Positions 3,997-13,920 of a stretch of 64,000 nt of DNA are shown in pieces (the stretch's first letter is position 1; the number at the start of each line of letters is the position of its first letter). Under the pieces are notes generated by a model. The model saw only the letters and a program-made list of their open reading frames with translations. It had not been told where the DNA came from and did no database searches. A program made the translations under genes and the position numbers. Source of the stretch: Syntrophaceae bacterium UBA2210 (GTDB lineage Bacteria > Desulfobacterota > Syntrophia > Syntrophales > UBA2210); NCBI GenBank assembly GCA_002327865.1, contig DCUQ01000009.1:96802-160801 (forward strand). The letters run 5' to 3'.

Positions 3997-5271
3997 GTGA
4001 ACGCAGAAGCCAGAACGTATCAGAAAGGAGAAATTCCCGGCATTATCAGGATCGATTCGGATACATGCAAGGGATGTGACTCCTGTAAACGCTACTGTCC
4101 CACAGGAGCTATTACGGGAATGTTCGGGGCCGCTCATGCTATCGACACGGAAAAATGTATCAATTGCGGCCAGTGCCTTATCAATTGTCCCTTTGGTGCC
4201 ATCCATGAAACCGTCGATACTGTTGATACCGTCATTGCCAGTCTGCAGGATAAAAATATCACGGTTGTCGGTATACCCGCGCCCGCGGTCCGCGTGGCCA
4301 TCGGCGAGGAGTTCGGCATGGCCGACGGGTCCCTGGTCACGAAGGAGATGTACGGGGCTATGAAGAAAGCCGGGTTCGAAATTCTGGACAACAACTTCGC
4401 GGCGGATCTCACCATAATGGAGGAAGGAACTGAGTTTATAGTGCGGGCGCGACATGCCCTCTTCGGAGAGGAAGGCCATGGACATGTCGGACCGCTTCCG
4501 CAGTTTACCTCCTGCTGTCCGGCATGGATCAGATACGTAGAGACCAGATATCCGTCCCTGATCCCGAATCTTTCGTCCGCCAAGTCTCCCCAGCAGATGG
4601 CCGGCCCCCTCGCCAAGACATACGGGGCCCTGGAAATCTGGAAAAAACCACCGGAGAGCATATATACCGTAGGGATCATGCCCTGTACTGCAAAAAAGTT
4701 CGAGGCGTCCCGCCCTGAGTTCACCAGCGCATACCACTTCCTGAAGAAGGAAGGAAAAGCGGGTTCCGATACTCTCTACCCGGATATCGACACGGTGTTG
4801 ACGACCCGTGATCTCGCACGGCTGTTCAAAAAAATGAAGCTCGACTTCAGGAAGGCGGGCGATGTTGAAGCCGGTCCGCTGGCGGAGTATACCGGCGCGG
4901 GTACGATCTTCGGGAATACGGGCGGTGTCATGGAGGCCGCGGTTCGAACGGCCTACAGGGTATTAACGGGCAACGAACTGGATCCCCTCGAGTTTAAACC
5001 GGTAAGAGGCATGAAGGGTGTCAAGAGCGCCTCCGTCACCTTGATGGATACGAAGTATGGTAAGGAAGTAACCGTCAATCTGGCCGTTGTTAACGGCCTG
5101 CACGGCAATATAGAACCGGTCCTTGAACGTGTCATGGCGGGGACATCCCCGTACCATTTCATCGAAGTAATGACCTGCCCCGGCGGCTGCATTAACGGCG
5201 GCGGACAGCCTATCAAATCCGATGGATCTTCATGGCTGCGGGCCGCTTTGCCGTTGTTCGGCTGGAAGTGA
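3997..5271 (+). CDS. hydA: Periplasmic [FeFe] hydrogenase, large (catalytic) subunit
   Basis: Catalyses reversible H2 oxidation/proton reduction at an H-cluster. Two ferredoxin-type [4Fe-4S] sites are visible (Cys 24/27/30/34 and 54/57/60/64). The three H-cluster signatures are complete: TSCCPAW (171-177) including the second Cys that in this family serves proton transfer, MPCTAKKFE (228-236), and the CPGGC segment (390-405). No [2Fe-2S] domain is present; the 424-residue size matches Desulfovibrio-type HydA. It has no signal peptide of its own, so export would be by hitch-hiking on the Tat signal of the next gene. GTG start behind a GGAGG site. The adjacent cytochrome b suggests electron exchange with the quinone pool (inference). 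Confidence 0.96.
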   Translation: MNAEARTYQKGEIPGIIRIDSDTCKGCDSCKRYCPTGAITGMFGAAHAIDTEKCINCGQCLINCPFGAIHETVDTVDTVIASLQDKNITVVGIPAPAVRVAIGEEFGMADGSLVTKEMYGAMKKAGFEILDNNFAADLTIMEEGTEFIVRARHALFGEEGHGHVGPLPQFTSCCPAWIRYVETRYPSLIPNLSSAKSPQQMAGPLAKTYGALEIWKKPPESIYTVGIMPCTAKKFEASRPEFTSAYHFLKKEGKAGSDTLYPDIDTVLTTRDLARLFKKMKLDFRKAGDVEAGPLAEYTGAGTIFGNTGGVMEAAVRTAYRVLTGNELDPLEFKPVRGMKGVKSASVTLMDTKYGKEVTVNLAVVNGLHGNIEPVLERVMAGTSPYHFIEVMTCPGGCINGGGQPIKSDGSSWLRAALPLFGWK

Positions 5272-5619: not shown

Positions 5620-6273
5620 ATGAGTAGGAATCAAACGTGGATATTAAAACATCCCTGGAGCGTAAGAAGTTTTCATTATCTGCTTGTACTGAGTTTCATA
5701 CCACTGGCCATTACCGGTGTGGCGCTCTACTTCAAACCCTTCGATCAATCGACAATGAATCTGTACATGAGAATTCACGTGGTGACGGGTGTTATTCTGA
5801 CGCTGGATGCCGTTGCCTATTTTATAATCGGTTTTGACCGTGTTATAGCGTTTATCAAGAGAAGTTTTTCATTCTCGGCAAATGACATAAAGTGGTTTTC
5901 AGTATTGGGCGGATACCCCCAGAAATTCCTCTTGAAAAAAAAGGTTACCCTTCCCCCTATGGGGAAGTATAACTCCGGCCAGAAATTGTTCGGCGTCTGT
6001 GTACTGATCGGCGGAACGATTCTCATCGCTACGGGTTGGGGACTCTGGGCATTCCCTCATATTCTCCCACACGGTACCGGATCCCTGTTTGGAACGCTTC
6101 ATCTTGTATTTGGCTGGATATTGATCCTGTTTCTGCTGGTCCATGTCTTCCTGGGGATTTACATGTTTGACGACTTCAAGGCGATGTTCCTGCATGGAAA
6201 AATCCCGTATGAAGAAGCCAAGGAAATAGCACCGATCTGGGTGGAACGGGAACTGATGAAAGTCGAGCGGTAA
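5620..6273 (+). CDS. Diheme cytochrome b subunit (formate dehydrogenase gamma / Ni,Fe-hydrogenase type)
   Basis: A 217-residue membrane protein with about four transmembrane helices (near 20-38, 52-72, 123-142, 158-182). Histidines at 19 and 53, and 161 and 175, lie in or next to the helices and are good candidates for axial ligands of two b hemes, as in FdnI/FdhI-type cytochromes. It follows the hydrogenase small subunit by 14 bp with an AAAGGAG site. It most likely takes electrons between the periplasmic hydrogenase and menaquinone. In a syntroph the reverse direction, quinol to H2, would be a route for reverse electron transport; that is inference. The extended C-terminus ends in a basic and acidic cytoplasmic-type tail. 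Confidence 0.9.
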   Translation: MSRNQTWILKHPWSVRSFHYLLVLSFIPLAITGVALYFKPFDQSTMNLYMRIHVVTGVILTLDAVAYFIIGFDRVIAFIKRSFSFSANDIKWFSVLGGYPQKFLLKKKVTLPPMGKYNSGQKLFGVCVLIGGTILIATGWGLWAFPHILPHGTGSLFGTLHLVFGWILILFLLVHVFLGIYMFDDFKAMFLHGKIPYEEAKEIAPIWVERELMKVER

Positions 6274-6381
6274 GATAATCATTCGAAAGATGCGAATGTC
6301 ACGGTTATCTTCTATTCGCCGGTTTGAAGGTTGCAGCCCGATAATTTCTAACTACCCTATATTGTTAAAGGAGTATTGAAG

Positions 6382-8136
6382 ATGGCTTTGGTAACAGTAA
6401 CCATAGACAACACAAAAACTAAGGTCGAAGAGGGAAGCACTGTCCTGGAAGCGGCACGCGCAGCGGGCATTACCATACCGACTTTGTGTGCATTTCCGGA
6501 GATAGGACATACTCCCGGTGCCTGCCGGGTCTGCGTGGTAGAGGTGGAACACCAGCGGGCGCTGGTTGCTTCGTGCGTATTTCCCGTCAGTGAAGGAATG
6601 GTAATCCATACGAATTCCGATCGTGTCCGCAAGGCCCGCAGGATGGTTGTCGAATTACTGCTCGCAAATCACCCGCCGGAATGCAACACCTGCGTCCGGA
6701 ACGGAAATTGCGAACTTCAGAAAGTAGCCGAGCAGGTAGGTCTGAGGGAAATACGATTCGATACCGTCTTCCCGCCGAAGGAAGACATCATCGATGCATC
6801 CAGTCCGTCCATTGTAAGAGATTCGAGGAAATGTATCCTCTGTAACAGATGTGTAACGGTATGTGAACAGGTCCAGACCGTTGCCGCGCTTACACCGGCA
6901 GGTAGAGGTAGCAGTGCACGCGTCGTGCCGGCATTCGACCTTCCGCTAAACGAAACGAACTGTACAAACTGCGGTCAGTGCGTCATGGCATGCCCCGTCG
7001 GTGCCTTATATGAAAAAGATCAGACGGACGAGGTCTGGAAGGTACTGAATGATCCTTCGAAACATGTGGTGGTTCAGGAAGCTCCGGCCATCAGAGCCGC
7101 CCTGGGAGAAGAGTTCGGCATGCCCGCCGGTTCCCTCGTCACGGGGAAAATGCTCGCCGCCTTGAGACGGTTAGGTTTCGACCGGGTTTTCGATACTAAT
7201 TTCACCGCCGACCTGACGATTATGGAAGAGGGTCACGAACTGCTGAAAAGAGTCAAAGAAGGTGGAAAGCTTCCTCTTATAACCTCATGTTCTCCCGGGT
7301 GGATCAAGTTCTGCGAACATTTTTATCCGGATCTGCTGGATAATATTTCAACATGTAAATCTCCGCAGCAGATGTTCGGCCCGATGGCAAAAACATACTA
7401 CGCAGAATCCGTGGACATCGATCCTGCAAATATTATCGTCGTTTCGGTAATGCCCTGCACGGCGAAAAAGTTTGAAGCTCAGAGACCGGAAATGAATGAC
7501 AGCGGCCACCGGGATGTGGATATAGTGCTTACCACCAGGGAACTTGCCAGAATGATACGGGAAGCAGGCATAGACTTTGTAAATCTTCCCGACGAAGAAC
7601 CCGATCTTCCCATGGGTGAATACACCGGTGCCGCCACAATCTTCGGGGCAACCGGCGGTGTCATGGAAGCGGCACTCCGTACAGCGTATGCAGTAGTCAC
7701 CGGAGAAAGCCTCAAAAATCTCGATATCATGCCGGTTCGCGGGCTGGACGGCGTCAAAGCCGCCGCGGTGAATATCCCCGGAATCGGAGAGGTAAAGGTC
7801 GCAGTGGCTCACGGTCTGGGGAACGCGAGAAAAGTGCTGGATAAAGTCCGGTCCGGTGAAGCCGATTACCACTTCATCGAGATCATGGCCTGTCCCGGCG
7901 GATGCATCGGTGGCGGGGGACAGCCTATTCCCACAAACAACGAGATAAGACGCCTGCGGAGCGATGCCCTTTACCAGGACGACAGTTCCGTACAGGAAAA
8001 CAGGCAGTCTCATGAGAATCAATCCGTCCAGAAAGCTTATGAAACTTTTCTGAAAGAGCCGCTGGGGCACAAATCACACAAGCTGCTCCACACTCATTAT
8101 ACGGAGCGGGGAACGGATGTGCCGCACAAGGGATAA
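6382..8136 (+). CDS. hndD: Cytosolic [FeFe] hydrogenase, HndD/HydA type with four accessory cluster domains
   Basis: A 584-residue hydrogenase catalytic subunit. An N-terminal [2Fe-2S] domain has Cys 36/48/51/65; a His-Cys3 [4Fe-4S] motif (HPPECNTCVRNGNC) lies near 95-108; two ferredoxin [4Fe-4S] motifs lie around 150-215. The H-cluster motifs are TSCSPGW, MPCTAKKFE and CPGGC. The first has Ser where the other hydrogenase has Cys, a variation I associate with NAD-linked or bifurcating types. The C-terminus carries a fused small-subunit-like segment (KSHKLLHTHY). No signal peptide is seen, so it is cytosolic. The ATG with AAAGGAG 8 nt away is preferred over an in-frame TTG two codons earlier. 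NuoE/NuoF-like partners, usual in such complexes, are absent nearby. Confidence 0.94.
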   Translation: MALVTVTIDNTKTKVEEGSTVLEAARAAGITIPTLCAFPEIGHTPGACRVCVVEVEHQRALVASCVFPVSEGMVIHTNSDRVRKARRMVVELLLANHPPECNTCVRNGNCELQKVAEQVGLREIRFDTVFPPKEDIIDASSPSIVRDSRKCILCNRCVTVCEQVQTVAALTPAGRGSSARVVPAFDLPLNETNCTNCGQCVMACPVGALYEKDQTDEVWKVLNDPSKHVVVQEAPAIRAALGEEFGMPAGSLVTGKMLAALRRLGFDRVFDTNFTADLTIMEEGHELLKRVKEGGKLPLITSCSPGWIKFCEHFYPDLLDNISTCKSPQQMFGPMAKTYYAESVDIDPANIIVVSVMPCTAKKFEAQRPEMNDSGHRDVDIVLTTRELARMIREAGIDFVNLPDEEPDLPMGEYTGAATIFGATGGVMEAALRTAYAVVTGESLKNLDIMPVRGLDGVKAAAVNIPGIGEVKVAVAHGLGNARKVLDKVRSGEADYHFIEIMACPGGCIGGGGQPIPTNNEIRRLRSDALYQDDSSVQENRQSHENQSVQKAYETFLKEPLGHKSHKLLHTHYTERGTDVPHKG

Positions 8137-8262: not shown

Positions 8263-8278
8263 AGTGACGGAGACATTA

Positions 8279-8536
8279 ATGGAAGAAAAACGGGTTGGGT
8301 TTGTCGGAATCATAGTGAAAGACAGGAAAAAGGATGCCGCAAAAGTAAACGAAATATTGACCGAGTTCGGAGACATCGTGGTGGGGAGAATAGGGCTCCC
8401 GTATCGTGAACGGGGTGTAAGTGTCATCGCCGTCATTGTCGACGGATCGACGAACGATATCGGATCGATGACGGGGAAACTCGGCATGCTTGACGATGTA
8501 ACCGTCAAATCGGCGCTGGCGAAGCAAAATGGGTAA
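8279..8536 (+). CDS. TM1266-type iron-only hydrogenase system regulator
   Basis: An 85-residue protein of the ACT/NikR-C-like family annotated as iron-only hydrogenase system putative regulator (TM1266 family). The pattern is a start with RVGFVGIIV, a central GDIVVGRIGLPYRERGVSVIAVIVDG and a closing LGMLDDVTVKSAL. The family is normally found beside hydEFG genes, as here. It has no obvious DNA-binding helix; its molecular role is not established. The ATG with GGAG six bases upstream is chosen over an in-frame GTG at 8264. It overlaps aspA by 8 nt and starts 17 bp after the terminator. Confidence 0.88.
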   Translation: MEEKRVGFVGIIVKDRKKDAAKVNEILTEFGDIVVGRIGLPYRERGVSVIAVIVDGSTNDIGSMTGKLGMLDDVTVKSALAKQNG

Positions 8537-9920
8537 TCGAATCGAACACGACCTGCTCGGAAGCATGGAAGTCCCCAAGCATGTCTACTGGGGAATACAT
8601 ACCGAACGGGCACGGCATAATTTTCCGATAAGCGTCGCAGCGGTGAATCCGTATCTCATCCGGGCGATGGCGCAGGTTAAGAAGGCGTGCTGCATGGCCA
8701 ATGCCGAACTGGGGTATCTTGCACCGGGCAAGGCGGAGGCGATCGTCCGTGCCTGTGATGATATTACGGGAAATGCCCTCGGGGACCAGTTCCCCGTCGA
8801 TGCGCTGCAGGGCGGGGCGGGAACATCCACCAACATGAACGTTAACGAAGTCGTTGCCAACAGGGCGATAGAACTGCTCGGAGGCAAGCCGGGAGATTAC
8901 GCCCTCGTCCATCCTCTTGAGGATGTCAACCTGCATCAGTCGACTAACGATACCTACCCGACGGCGGTAAAGATAGCGTGCATCAACAGGTTGAGAACCC
9001 TGAGCGAGAATATTGCCTCGCTCCAGGGAGCGTTCCAGGAAAAGGAATTCGGCGCCGTTGTAAAGATCGGACGTACGGAACTCCAGGAAGCCGTTCCCAT
9101 CACGCTGGGAACCGAATTTTCCGCCTTTGCGGAGGCCGTCGCGCGGGACCGGTGGAGAACGTTCAAATGCGAGGAACGCCTTCGTGTGGTGAACCTCGGC
9201 GGGACGGCGGTGGGAACGGGGCTTACCGCTCCCAGGGATTACATTTTTCTGGTCATTGAAAAGCTCCGTGAGCTCACCGGTCTCGGCCTTTCACGGGGAG
9301 AAAACATCATGGGGGAAACGGCCAATGCCGATGCCTTCGTAGAGGTCTCCGCCACGTTGAAGGCCCATGCATCGAATCTGGTCAAGATATGCAACGATCT
9401 GAGAATTCTCACCCTTCTGGGAGAAATACGCCTGCCCCCGCTGCAGGCGGGGTCGTCCGTCATGCCGGGGAAAGTCAATCCCGTGCTGCTGGAGGCGGCG
9501 ATCCAGTCGGGAATAAAGGTCATGGCAAACGATGCGATCGTCAGCGACGCGGCGAGCAGGGGAACCCTGCAGATCAATGAATTTCTGCCCCTCCTCGCCC
9601 ACGCGATGCTCGAATCACTCGACATACTCGTCAACATCGATTCGCTGCTGCAGAACCATGTCGGACAAATCGCCGCCGATGAACAGGCGTGCCGATACTA
9701 CTTCGACAGAAGCCCCATGATCATAACGGCCCTCGTGCCGGTCATCGGATATGAAGAAGCGACGGCGCTGATAACGGAATTCGCCGCCGGCGACGAAAGG
9801 AATATGCGGGCATTCCTGGAACGGCGGCTGGGCAGCGAGATAATTGAGAAGATCTTTTCACCGGAGAAAATCACGGCACTCGGATACAGGAATTATGGAC
9901 ACGACACCAAAGGGAAATAG
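8529..9920 (+). CDS. aspA: Aspartate ammonia-lyase in hydrogenase maturation operon
   Basis: Catalyses L-aspartate to fumarate plus ammonia. The 463-residue length and motifs match the aspartase/fumarase superfamily: GAGTSTNMNVNEV near 97-109, the HQSTNDTYPTA segment near 137-147 and the catalytic-loop signature GSSVMPGKVNP near 314-324. It is assigned to aspartase rather than class II fumarase by overall pattern; the two are close, so some doubt remains. It overlaps the regulator upstream by 8 nt and hydF downstream by 26 nt. Aspartase genes recur inside hydEFG clusters, and the ammonia could feed the nitrogen of the azadithiolate bridge of the H-cluster (inference). Confidence 0.9.
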   Translation: MGNRIEHDLLGSMEVPKHVYWGIHTERARHNFPISVAAVNPYLIRAMAQVKKACCMANAELGYLAPGKAEAIVRACDDITGNALGDQFPVDALQGGAGTSTNMNVNEVVANRAIELLGGKPGDYALVHPLEDVNLHQSTNDTYPTAVKIACINRLRTLSENIASLQGAFQEKEFGAVVKIGRTELQEAVPITLGTEFSAFAEAVARDRWRTFKCEERLRVVNLGGTAVGTGLTAPRDYIFLVIEKLRELTGLGLSRGENIMGETANADAFVEVSATLKAHASNLVKICNDLRILTLLGEIRLPPLQAGSSVMPGKVNPVLLEAAIQSGIKVMANDAIVSDAASRGTLQINEFLPLLAHAMLESLDILVNIDSLLQNHVGQIAADEQACRYYFDRSPMIITALVPVIGYEEATALITEFAAGDERNMRAFLERRLGSEIIEKIFSPEKITALGYRNYGHDTKGK

Positions 9921-11178
9921 ACTTCACATCGCCATTTTCGGAAGGACGAACGTGGGCAAATCGAGCCTGCTCAATCTTTTGATCGGCCAGGACATCGCCA
10001 TTACTTCGCCCGAAGCGGGAACAACGACCGACGTGGTGGAAAAGGCAATGGAGCTTCTGCCGCTGGGGCCGGTTCTGTTTCTCGACACGGCGGGACTCGA
10101 CGACATTTCATCCCTCGCACGTCTCCGTCTTGAAAAAACGTGGAAGATATTCGACCGGGCGGATATCATTCTTCTCGTGATCGAGGCCGACAGGTGGACC
10201 GAATATGACGAGAAGGTGCTCGCCGAGGCAAAGAAGCGGGACGTGCCCGTCATCGTGGTGATCAACAAGATCGATCTTCACACACCGAGGGAAGAATTTG
10301 TCGCCTCCGTCGAGAAAAAGGCGGGACGGGTGGTCCTCGCCGCCGGCAATGACCGGGCTGGAAGAAACGATTATATCAATCCACTGAAGCGGCATCTTAT
10401 TCAGGTCGCGGCAGATCACTGTATGCAGCCGCCGCCTTTGATCGGAGATCTCCTTCCGTCGGGGGGCGTCGCTGTACTGGTGGTTCCCATCGACCTCGAG
10501 GCGCCGAAGGGTAGACTCATCCTGCCGCAGGTGCAGACGATCCGAGATGCTCTGGACAACGATTCGATGGCGCTCATCGTCAAGGAAAGAGAGCTTGCCC
10601 ATGCCCTGGGCAACTTGAAGCAGGCTCCCCATATCGTCGTCTGCGACTCGCAGGTGGTGCAGAAAATGTGCGCCGATACGCCGGCGACGGTTCCCGCAAC
10701 GACATTCTCCATTCTTTTCGCGCGGCACAAGGGCGATCTGGTGGAGGCGGCACGGGGGGCGGCGGCCATCGAGAAGCTGGAACCGGGGGACAAGGTTCTT
10801 ATTGCCGAGGCGTGTTCGCACCATCCGCTCCAGGATGATATCGGTCGGGTAAAGATACCGCGGTGGCTCCGTCAGTATACGGGATTCAACCTTTCGGTCG
10901 ACGTTTTCGCCGGGCGGGATTATCCCGAGAATCTCTCTCAGTACAAGCTGATCATTCACTGCGGAGCCTGCATGCTGACGAGAAGGGAGATGCTCAACAG
11001 AATCGGAAAGGCAAAAGAAGCGGGCGTATCGATTACCAACTACGGAGTGGCAATATCGCTTTTGCAGGGAGTATTGAGGCGGGTACTTTCACCGTTTCCT
11101 GCGGCATTAAGCACATTCTACAAGGCAATGGGAAAAACACGGGAGGAAGAAACAAATGAGCGGTCAGTCAGCATATAG
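9895..11178 (+). CDS. hydF: [FeFe] hydrogenase maturation GTPase HydF
   Basis: Scaffold on which the diiron subcluster is assembled and from which it is handed to apo-hydrogenase. N-terminal GTPase domain: P-loop GRTNVGKS (16-23), a conserved TTTD in switch I, DTAGLDD (G3), and NKID (G4). The C-terminal cluster-binding domain shows the expected cysteine and histidine ligands: CSHH in the LIAEACSHHPLQDD segment and HCGAC about 50 residues later. 427 residues, normal for HydF. The ATG lies inside the end of aspA (26-nt overlap) and the end overlaps hydG by 23 nt, so expression should be tightly coupled. Confidence 0.96.
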   Translation: MDTTPKGNRLHIAIFGRTNVGKSSLLNLLIGQDIAITSPEAGTTTDVVEKAMELLPLGPVLFLDTAGLDDISSLARLRLEKTWKIFDRADIILLVIEADRWTEYDEKVLAEAKKRDVPVIVVINKIDLHTPREEFVASVEKKAGRVVLAAGNDRAGRNDYINPLKRHLIQVAADHCMQPPPLIGDLLPSGGVAVLVVPIDLEAPKGRLILPQVQTIRDALDNDSMALIVKERELAHALGNLKQAPHIVVCDSQVVQKMCADTPATVPATTFSILFARHKGDLVEAARGAAAIEKLEPGDKVLIAEACSHHPLQDDIGRVKIPRWLRQYTGFNLSVDVFAGRDYPENLSQYKLIIHCGACMLTRREMLNRIGKAKEAGVSITNYGVAISLLQGVLRRVLSPFPAALSTFYKAMGKTREEETNERSVSI

Positions 11179-12649
11179 TATGAAGGAAAAAGATTGGATA
11201 AGCCGGATCGTAAAGGAAAACGAAATTACCCGGTATATGACCGGCGGAAAAGATTTCATAGACGACGAAAAGATATGGGACAAGATCACTGTCAACAAGA
11301 ACCCCGAAGCCGGGAAAATCCGGGACATCATCCGGAAATCACTCGCCATAGAAACCCTTGATCCCGATGAAACCGCGGCCTTGCTGAATGTGGAGGACAA
11401 AGAGTTGTGGGAGGAGATGTTCGAAGCGGCGGGCGAGGTGAAGCGAAGGGTCTATGACAATCGTATCGTGACATTTGCGCCTCTCTACTTCGGAAATCTT
11501 TGTGTCAACAACTGTCTATATTGCGCCTTCAGGAAAGACAACAAAACCGAAGTGAGGAAACGGTTGTCCCTGGAGCAGATACGGGAGGAAGTCAAGGGAA
11601 TGATTTCCATAGGGCACAAGCGCCTTATGCTGGATTGCGGAGAACATCCCGGCACGGACGCCGATTACATTGCCGATGTGCTTCGTACCATTTACGATAC
11701 AAAAATCGGAAGGGGTGAGATAAGGAGGATTAATATTAACGTTGCTTCCATGAGCATCGAAAAACTCAATATGCTTAACCAGGTGGGCATAGGAACATAT
11801 CAGGTATTTCAGGAAACATATCACCATAAAACCTACCGGGATGTTCACCCCGACCTCGAAGCGCCGAAGTCGAATTACGGGTGGAGACTCTATTCTCTGC
11901 ACAGGGGAATGGATGCAGGAATAGACGATGCAGGCATAGGCGTTCTCTTCGGCCTGTATGACTGGAGATTCGAGGTCATGGGGCTGCTTTACCACGCACT
12001 GAATCTGGAAGAGCAATTCGGAATAGGACCTCATACCATTTCAATTCCAAGATTGCAGCCGGCGGAGGACACTCCCTTTATACATTCGACCAGGTACCGG
12101 GTCTCCGACGAGGATTTTAAAAAACTGGTCACGATAATAAGGCTTTCGGTCCCTTACACGGGAATGATTCTCACGGCACGGGAAAGTGCACAGTTGCGCC
12201 GTGAGGTCATTTCATTGGGGATTACCCAGGCGGATGCAGGGACACGAATAGGCATCGGTACCTATAGCGAGAGCTACGACGAGCAGGAAGCAAAAAGGCA
12301 GCAGTTTCTCCTGGGTGATCCGAGAGGGCTGGATGAGTTCATAAGGGAGCTTGCCGAACGCGGATACATCACGTCCTTCTGTACGGCAGGTTACCGGTGT
12401 GGAAGAACCGGGAAGCGTATCATGGATCTCCTGAGATGCGGGCAGGAAGGCCGTTTCTGCAAGCTCAATGCCGTGCTTACCTTCAGGGAATGGCTGGACG
12501 ACTTCGCCAGCGAGGAGACAAAAAAGGCGGGAGAAAAGGTTATCCTGAAAGAACTGGAGGAAATCAAACAGCAGATTCCCTCCACCTACCCGAAACTGAT
12601 GGAATATTACGGAAAGATTAAAGATGGAGAAAGAGACCTGTATTTTTAG
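11156..12649 (+). CDS. hydG: [FeFe] hydrogenase maturase HydG (radical SAM tyrosine lyase), variant C-terminal cluster motif
   Basis: Radical SAM enzyme that cleaves tyrosine to give CO and cyanide bound to iron for the H-cluster. The SAM-cluster motif CX3CX2C is at Cys 116/120/123. 497 residues, close to the usual 470-490. The C-terminal auxiliary cluster normally uses CX2CX22C (CTACYR...). Here Cys 409 and Cys 435 are in place, but the middle position (412) is Gly and a Cys sits three residues later at 415, giving CTAGYRC; another Cys is at 428. The reading frame is clean. Overlaps hydF by 23 nt and the next gene by 26 nt. It is the only hydG in view and should be functional, since two intact hydrogenases are present. 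Confidence 0.95.
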   Translation: MSGQSAYSMKEKDWISRIVKENEITRYMTGGKDFIDDEKIWDKITVNKNPEAGKIRDIIRKSLAIETLDPDETAALLNVEDKELWEEMFEAAGEVKRRVYDNRIVTFAPLYFGNLCVNNCLYCAFRKDNKTEVRKRLSLEQIREEVKGMISIGHKRLMLDCGEHPGTDADYIADVLRTIYDTKIGRGEIRRININVASMSIEKLNMLNQVGIGTYQVFQETYHHKTYRDVHPDLEAPKSNYGWRLYSLHRGMDAGIDDAGIGVLFGLYDWRFEVMGLLYHALNLEEQFGIGPHTISIPRLQPAEDTPFIHSTRYRVSDEDFKKLVTIIRLSVPYTGMILTARESAQLRREVISLGITQADAGTRIGIGTYSESYDEQEAKRQQFLLGDPRGLDEFIRELAERGYITSFCTAGYRCGRTGKRIMDLLRCGQEGRFCKLNAVLTFREWLDDFASEETKKAGEKVILKELEEIKQQIPSTYPKLMEYYGKIKDGERDLYF

Positions 12650-12914
12650 GCAGACATTAACCGGTTATCTGAACTGGACGGCGCGATACATTCAGGAAAC
12701 GTACGGGGTTAACGTGTGGTTTGCCGAAATCATGGGAAGAAGATGGTCCTATATCGCCGGCAGCAGGGGAGAAGAAAGTTCCCTGTCTCCCCCAAGCCGG
12801 ATCGAAATCACCGACCGGTTCGGGCTCGTTTCTGACGGGTGGGAGAACATTCCCTCCGACGAAAGCGAAGCGATCATATCGCGGCTGAGAGAAACCATAA
12901 CAGCATATGGATAA
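12624..12914 (+). CDS. Unrecognised 96-residue protein between hydG and hydE
   Basis: I do not recognise this protein. It is predicted soluble, with no signal peptide or membrane helix and a single Cys (residue 6). It is rich in aromatic residues in the first half (Trp and Tyr around 17-46, including a RRWSYIAGSRGEE stretch), and has a Pro/Ser-rich middle and a helical C-terminus. It starts 26 nt inside hydG with an ATG and overlaps hydE by 8 nt, so it is almost certainly translated with the maturases. Its place suggests a role in H-cluster assembly, for instance as a small chaperone or partner of HydE or HydG; this is guilt by association only. Confidence 0.75.
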   Translation: MEKETCIFRQTLTGYLNWTARYIQETYGVNVWFAEIMGRRWSYIAGSRGEESSLSPPSRIEITDRFGLVSDGWENIPSDESEAIISRLRETITAYG

Positions 12915-13920
12915 AGAAGAGATCTTATATTTTCTGGAACATCCCGACGAAGAGGAAAAACTCTTCCGGAAGGCCGATGAAGTACGGAAGAACCGGTGCG
13001 GTAACGATGTCCATATACGGGGGATTATCGAGTTTTCCAATTACTGCTGCCGGAACTGCCGTTACTGCGGATTGAGACGAGACAACGTGAACCTGAACCG
13101 GTACCGGATGGAAGAACGGGAAATTATCGACCTCGCCCGTCGGATTGCCGCGACCGGCATAAAAACGATCGTTCTTCAGTCGGGAGATGATTTTCATTAC
13201 ACCCGCAGGGCACTCTGCCGCATCATCGAGCGTATCAAACAAAACGATGACGTCGCAATAACACTGAGCGTCGGGGAACGACCCTTCGACGATTACCGGG
13301 CCTTCAAACTCGCGGGAGTGGACCGGTATCTGCTCAAACACGAAACGGCAAACAGTGATCTTTACGGCAGTCTTCATCCCGGCCAGACTCTGGAACAAAG
13401 ATTGAAGATACTGGCGTTTCTGAGAGATATCGGCTGCCAGATAGGATCGGGGAACATCGTCGGCCTCCCCGGTCAAACCTGCGACGACCTCTGTGCCGAT
13501 ATCCTCCTGCTCGAAAAGCTGGATCCCGATATGTCGTCCGTAGGACTCTTCATCCCGCAACACGATACGCCGTTATCGAATACTCCTGCCGGAGACCTGC
13601 AGACGGCGCTGAGAGTTCTGGCGCTCGCGAGAACAGCCACTCAGGATGCTCATATACCTGTGACCACGGCAATCGTAACCGCCGATCCCGAGACAGGTCT
13701 GGTTCGAGGATTACGGGCGGGTGCGAATGTTATCATGCCAGATTTTACCCCTGAGACCTGCAGCCGGGAATATGCCATCTACGACAACAAGATACGGATT
13801 ACACTTCAAGAAGCAAAAGAGGCGATCCGTACGACCGGGAGAACAGTATCGAAGACCAGGGGCGATTCGCTGAAACAAAACAGCTGCACATACAGGGACA
13901 TCGGAACCGGAAAAGCGTAA
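12907..13920 (+). CDS. hydE: [FeFe] hydrogenase maturase HydE (radical SAM)
   Basis: Radical SAM enzyme of the BioB/HydE family that processes the HydG-derived Fe(CO)2CN species on the way to the diiron subcluster. CX3CX2C at Cys 47/51/54 binds the catalytic [4Fe-4S] cluster; CGLRRDN, an LQSGDD segment near 96 and GSGNIVGLPGQT near 183 are typical of HydE. 337 residues, of normal length. ATG overlaps the preceding small gene by 8 nt. It ends the maturation operon; the 70-bp gap to the convergent ABC permease gene shows no strong terminator. Confidence 0.95.
   Translation: MDKEEILYFLEHPDEEEKLFRKADEVRKNRCGNDVHIRGIIEFSNYCCRNCRYCGLRRDNVNLNRYRMEEREIIDLARRIAATGIKTIVLQSGDDFHYTRRALCRIIERIKQNDDVAITLSVGERPFDDYRAFKLAGVDRYLLKHETANSDLYGSLHPGQTLEQRLKILAFLRDIGCQIGSGNIVGLPGQTCDDLCADILLLEKLDPDMSSVGLFIPQHDTPLSNTPAGDLQTALRVLALARTATQDAHIPVTTAIVTADPETGLVRGLRAGANVIMPDFTPETCSREYAIYDNKIRITLQEAKEAIRTTGRTVSKTRGDSLKQNSCTYRDIGTGKA

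Follow-up and report, generated by a model that had tools for sequence, protein, structure and literature searches.

The closest described relatives of the protein considered here are the HydGs of Thermoanaerobacter italicus (4WCX) and Carboxydothermus hydrogenoformans (4RTB), both of which carry a Cys at position 412 (CTACYR; numbering of the HydG studied here). ThiH (2-iminoacetate synthase), a tyrosine lyase, is a radical SAM relative. The available part of PMC11736057 describes the second cluster of HydG as the site at which the H-cluster obtains its first iron-CO-CN unit, and mutational work cited in the accessible portions of PMC9431212 found the C-terminal cluster to be essential. According to the same portions, which cite Duffus 2012 on the variability of the HydG motif, HydGs differ in their cluster-binding sequences; for other acetogens, candidates with C-x(4)-C-x(23-25)-C were reported, and the HydG of Clostridium autoethanogenum (CLAU_RS03260) was given the motif C-x(5)-C-x(19)-C, which was assigned from sequence motifs and is known there from sequence. 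A literature search that covered mainly titles and abstract openings, and few subscription papers, revealed no other report of such a Cys shift.

The stretch of DNA analysed here (the window; 64,000 nucleotides of contig DCUQ01000009.1 of Syntrophaceae bacterium UBA2210) contains on its forward strand, as for all the window genes given below, a hydG gene (11156-12649) encoding 497 aa. The product matched the HydG model TIGR03955 over residues 32-497, most of the protein length, with 473.8 bits (cut-off 312.15), whereas the ThiH match reached 245.6 bits, under its cut-off of 380, and stopped short of the cluster motif, at residue 405. The best PDB sequence match and the best Foldseek match of the AlphaFold model were both found to be 4wcx (TM 0.82/0.89); in the model, residues 410-418 exhibited pLDDT values under 50 and the loop was not placed. 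The window HydG is of the same family and fold as 4WCX and 4RTB and has in common with them the first and last auxiliary-cluster Cys, here Cys409 (tgt, 12380-12382) and Cys435 (tgc, 12458-12460), as well as the His of GPHTIS/GPHTVS. In place of Cys412, however, it presents Gly412 (ggt, 12389-12391), with Cys415 (tgt, 12398-12400) three residues on (CTAGYRC; CTAGYRCGRTG in the translation). The classical C-x2-C-x22-C is accordingly absent, and the sequence and alignments give C409-x5-C415-x19-C435 (12380-12460), identical in spacing to CLAU_RS03260; with this spacing already in print for one Clostridium, the window HydG belongs to a documented HydG form. The radical SAM motif CX3CX2C (C116, C120 and C123; 11501-11524) was intact, with all three Cys present in 472/472 aligned HydGs. 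His293 (12032-12034), which aligned with the GPHTIS His of 4wcx, is presumably the equivalent of the His that holds the dangler iron in the T. italicus enzyme; this position was His in 467 and Arg in 5 of the 472. An earlier note on this DNA had listed residues 409, 412, 415, 428 and 435 with their spacing, and the codons at 412 and 415, all of which proved exact on re-reading. Its premise that known HydGs share a fixed CX2CX22C was too narrow, C-x(5)-C-x(19)-C being the rule among relatives and 331 of 470 aligned homologues lacking C412.

Conservation was evaluated among close relatives in two samples. The combination of G412, C415 and C435 was present in 120/120 homologues (the best 120 of 8000 matched, the window's own protein, P0001, included), and among the best 80 of 539 loci in a genome collection 79 carried G412 with C415 and the remaining one D412 with C415. 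By record title, these 80 loci include Syntrophales, Thermotogae, Caldanaerobacter, Omnitrophota, Spirochaetes, Planctomycetota, Lentisphaerae, WOR-3 and Archaeoglobaceae. CX5C thus does occur in relatives, in 120/120 homologues and with C415 in 80/80 loci, and the possibility, considered in the earlier note, that it is an ordinary variant holds at the level of sequence. The HydG with the moved Cys is, judged by these sequences, a conserved form in many bacteria and some archaea and not the oddity of a single genome. The codons at position 412 of the 80 loci were 26 GGA, 24 GGT, 22 GGC, 7 GGG and 1 GAT, and those at 415 were 51 TGC and 29 TGT; with all four Gly codons and both Cys codons in use, the residues appear to be kept by selection. 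An error of sequencing or assembly at 12389-12400 would be conceivable in that ggt and tgt differ by a single base, but with identical residues in the 119 other homologues listed and four Gly codons among the 80 loci, a single-base slip cannot explain the motif, and this explanation was rejected as having practically no chance of being right. Cys428 (tgc, 12437-12439), also pointed out in the earlier note, is indeed present; a role as ligand found no support and was rejected, since the position was Cys in only 19/120 homologues (the best 120 of 8000 matched).

The hyd operon around the gene was found to be intact. It comprises an [FeFe]-hydrogenase gene assigned by model to group A6 (6376-8136; NF040763, 919 bits, cut-off 765), a gene for a putative regulator of the TM1266 family (8264-8536; TIGR03959, 110.7 bits, cut-off 60.8), an aspartate ammonia-lyase-like gene (8529-9920; NF008909, 555.9 bits, cut-off 510), hydF (9844-11178; TIGR03918, 539.9 bits, cut-off 325.55), hydG, a small ORF and hydE (12907-13920; TIGR03956, 313.7 bits, cut-off 254.6), the last four being consecutive overlapping genes, with hydF overlapping the start of hydG by 23 nt. 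The aspartate ammonia-lyase-like gene scored 456.9 with the stricter aspA model TIGR00839, under its cut-off of 681.2; hyd operons that contain aspA are known from the available part of PMC11736057. A second [FeFe]-hydrogenase gene (3997-5271; 424 aa; TIGR02512, 437.4 bits, cut-off 405.95) is followed by a gene for a formate dehydrogenase gamma-like cytochrome b (5620-6273; 70.3 bits, under the model cut-off of 115.85), and the sequence suggests that this hydrogenase may be membrane-linked.

Among frames of at least 60 codons in the window no second hydG was found, the sole other match to the HydG model being hydE. When the genomes of 20 relatives chosen from the 80 C415-type loci were searched with the HydG model, each displayed a single HydG over the cut-off; one of them, Athalassotoga saccharophila, has a record titled complete genome, while the rest include many incomplete MAGs. 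A canonical backup copy is therefore not the usual explanation, and the existence of another HydG, one of three options offered in the earlier note, is unusual, with exceptions in three genomes that carried two HydGs over the cut-off. These were G039, with one HydG of each form (L170 and L171), G254, which holds the locus L249, and G216, with one HydG bearing C412 and one with neither Cys (L177 and L153). The UBA2210 genome might encode, outside the window, a further HydG of canonical form that does the job, the window copy being specialised or decayed, much as G039 and G254 would allow. Such a division is nevertheless very improbable, given the single HydG in 20/20 genomes of C415-type loci (many of them incomplete MAGs), the intact gene within its operon and the codon variation of the relatives, which shows the residues to be kept.

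To place the motif in a wider set, HydGs from the loci and from two HydG homologue searches were pooled, giving 472 proteins, of which 470 covered the motif region and 292 of these were distinct (<90% identity). The pool of 470 goes back to two queries, both non-canonical, and to chosen genome groups, with duplicates included, so that the shares given here are not population frequencies. C409 and C435 were each present in 470/470. C412 was found in 139, C415 in 277, both in 1 and neither in 55, the corresponding values for the 292 distinct proteins being 91, 173, 1 and 29. The one HydG with both Cys (P0171; CTACYRC) is possibly an intermediate between the forms. A Cys at 404, 412, 415 or 420 was present in 463/470, the seven exceptions being L177, L227, L233, L239, P0173, P0246 and P0251. 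C404 together with C409 and C435 would give the C-x(4)-C-x(23-25)-C pattern of the acetogen candidates in PMC9431212; since C404 and C420 occur also alongside C412 or C415, that they act as replacements can only be suggested. Two hydG genes, L174 (G044) and L164 (G180), were broken inside the reading frame and were left uncorrected.

At a probability of about 0.7, the window HydG is an ordinary working HydG of a large derived clade, which would do the usual job with its auxiliary cluster on Cys409, Cys415 and Cys435. This reading is preferred because C415 was present in all the 120 homologues listed and all the 80 best loci, C412 and C415 occurred together in only one of 470 HydGs while C409 and C435 were invariant, the radical SAM Cys and His293 were kept, and each of the 20 genomes had one HydG; the intact operon and two hydrogenase genes of the window point the same way. 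Of the options in the earlier note, that in which the cluster uses Cys415 is best supported by conservation, from which we infer the ligand role of this residue. The auxiliary iron-sulphur cluster would then be held by C-x5-C-x19-C and not by C-x2-C-x22-C; tyrosine lysis would take place at the radical SAM cluster and would be followed by CO/CN assembly on the dangler iron of the auxiliary cluster, His293 being kept. The product would be the usual Fe(CO)2CN unit, feeding HydE and HydF, and product formation (p-cresol, CO and CN as well as the Fe(CO)2CN synthon) is expected to be unchanged. Between HydGs with and without C412, 18 positions besides 412 differed in majority residue, which could reflect an altered auxiliary cluster with a different or free product, for instance CO and CN released instead of the Fe(CO)2CN synthon. 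These differences are, however, partly clade history, His293 is kept, and the window has hydE, hydF and both hydrogenase genes, all scoring over the cut-offs of their models, so that changed chemistry of this kind is improbable.

HydGs with Cys at neither 412 nor 415 were also evaluated. A second homologue search, with the HydG of Aceticella autotrophica as query, gave 111 new listed proteins, 48 of which had Gly, Asp or Ser at 412 and a residue other than Cys at 415; named proteins among the 48 included those of Tepidanaerobacter and Ammonifex. The HydGs of A. autotrophica and Tepidanaerobacter acetatoxydans resemble the window HydG in Gly412 and fall in the same larger clade, but both have a non-Cys 415, with Cys400 and Cys420 in the former and Cys400 and Cys404 in the latter. 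The genome taken as that of A. autotrophica (G036) displayed one HydG over the cut-off, CTAGYRAGRTGC, identical to the protein P0142 and encoded on the reverse strand (L173; 3475-4956), together with two [FeFe]-hydrogenase genes. In the available part of PMC10213532, this organism is described as an obligate autotroph that, apart from an Ech complex containing Ni, relies for hydrogen uptake solely on HydABC and on HydA2, which is part of the CO2 reductase. With a single HydG and [FeFe] uptake hydrogenases, the gene content indicates that this HydG, devoid of Cys412 and Cys415, is very probably functional in that cell, and its Cys400 and Cys420 are candidate replacement ligands. A further locus, L225 (G561), carries its genome's one HydG over the cut-off, also without Cys at 412 and 415 and 99% identical to the HydG of T. 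acetatoxydans Re1. The HydGs of L233 and L239 (CTAGYRAGRTGH) had no Cys at 400, 404, 412, 415 or 420, and in the genome of the former (G549) a single HydG over the cut-off was accompanied by three [FeFe]-hydrogenase matches over theirs.

Since 55/470 HydGs had Cys at neither 412 nor 415, the third ligand may not be needed in those proteins. The middle ligand could then be dispensable in this clade, the cluster being held by Cys409, Cys435 and a non-Cys or exogenous ligand, with another role for Cys415. The seven HydGs that also lack Cys404 and Cys420, the three hydrogenase matches beside a single HydG in G549 and the single HydG of Aceticella are consistent with this, but C415 was kept in 35 of the 36 tree rows of the window's own subclade, 463/470 HydGs retained a Cys at 404, 412, 415 or 420, and the mutational work cited in the accessible portions of PMC9431212 has the C-terminal cluster as essential. 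Dispensability is on balance unlikely for the window HydG, if less so than changed chemistry, and ligation by Cys415 remains the preferred reading.

The history of the forms was studied in a tree of 105 HydGs that was rooted with ThiH and built after masking of the motif columns. It is a 'quick' tree whose branch support is SH-aLRT only, and 40/105 inner branches were unresolved. All rows without C412 fell inside one clade of 81 rows (SH-aLRT 100), which also held 15 rows with C412 and without C415, plus a single row with both; C412 was present in each of the 24 rows outside this clade. The window HydG belonged to a subclade of 36 rows (99), with 32 Gly/Cys, 3 Asp/Cys and 1 Gly/non-Cys at positions 412 and 415. 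A single origin of Gly412, obtained with a smaller tree (66 HydGs), was superseded by the wider tree, on whose best version positions 412 and 415 each changed at least seven times inside the 81-row clade. Only four independent pairs differed at 412 on supported branches, and with kinship counted in this way the mutual exclusion of C412 and C415 was not significant (independent-pairs sign test, 4 pairs, median p 1), striking as it is in raw counts. Repeated change and exclusivity have weaker support on the supported branches than on the best tree, and for this reason the preferred reading was rated slightly lower.

A broader proposal can be put forward only tentatively, with the odds somewhat against it: the middle auxiliary-cluster ligand may be movable in evolution and in places dispensable, the third Cys having shifted repeatedly among 404, 412, 415 and 420 in one large clade and a few HydGs managing with Cys409 and Cys435 alone, so that the dangler-iron site could be built on differently held clusters; the small ORF product might, in addition, act with HydG or HydE as a so far unnoticed partner. 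Ready variants for testing the ligand role are offered by nature, in a large clade whose middle Cys has moved and in at least one cultured organism with neither Cys, and it is this testability of the middle Cys through its movement in evolution that makes the case moderately interesting. For annotators, a strict CX2CX22C is no ground for rejecting a HydG; in its accessible portions, PMC9431212 weighs the strictness of the motif among the reasons why hydG was not found in five of eight acetogens.

The small ORF between hydG and hydE (12624-12914; 96 aa) is unnamed and conserved, and it overlaps hydG by 26 nt and hydE by 8 nt. Its product gave no match among NCBIfam models, no Pfam model over the cut-off and no sequence match among solved structures (best E 0.15); an alpha-beta fold was predicted by AlphaFold, with weak resemblance to GAF and roadblock domains in fold comparison. 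The start of the small protein is encoded within the stretch shared with hydG. The counting profile omitted the first 12 residues, and three early matches to long frames (346-349 aa), taken as hydE overlapping hydG, were removed. A first count found the ORF in 51/85 distinct loci without C412 that had room for it versus 0/65 with C412, and full-length matches at the genome level were found in 3/37 and 4/198 genomes, each with a HydG without C412; three short matches (26 to 49 positions; G043, G045 and G066) were taken as chance. The ORF was thus considered as a partner specific to HydGs without C412, an idea that was rejected when 29/30 Thermotogota loci fetched, all with C412, were found to carry it. 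For the same reason it is not tied to the moved Cys. In the literature, TM1268 and TM1267, the names of the corresponding loci (small protein and HydG) in Thermotoga maritima, retrieved only unrelated worm papers. The ORF was directly downstream of hydG in 68/150 distinct loci, the window counted as one, with 17/66 among C412 loci, 46/78 among C415 loci (window included) and 5/6 among those with neither; its association with HydG form gave a Fisher p of 3e-5 with kinship ignored, and only two tree-based pairs. An adjoining copy was absent from 34 C415-type loci, and two more had no room for it; a search of 38 genomes gave no match elsewhere in those 36, the two matches belonging to the added loci L007 and L029, which carry it. 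In many lineages the small ORF product could be a partner of HydG or HydE that has so far escaped notice; homologues of it adjoin hydG in, among others, Caldanaerobacter, Thermotogota, Archaeoglobaceae and Syntrophales.
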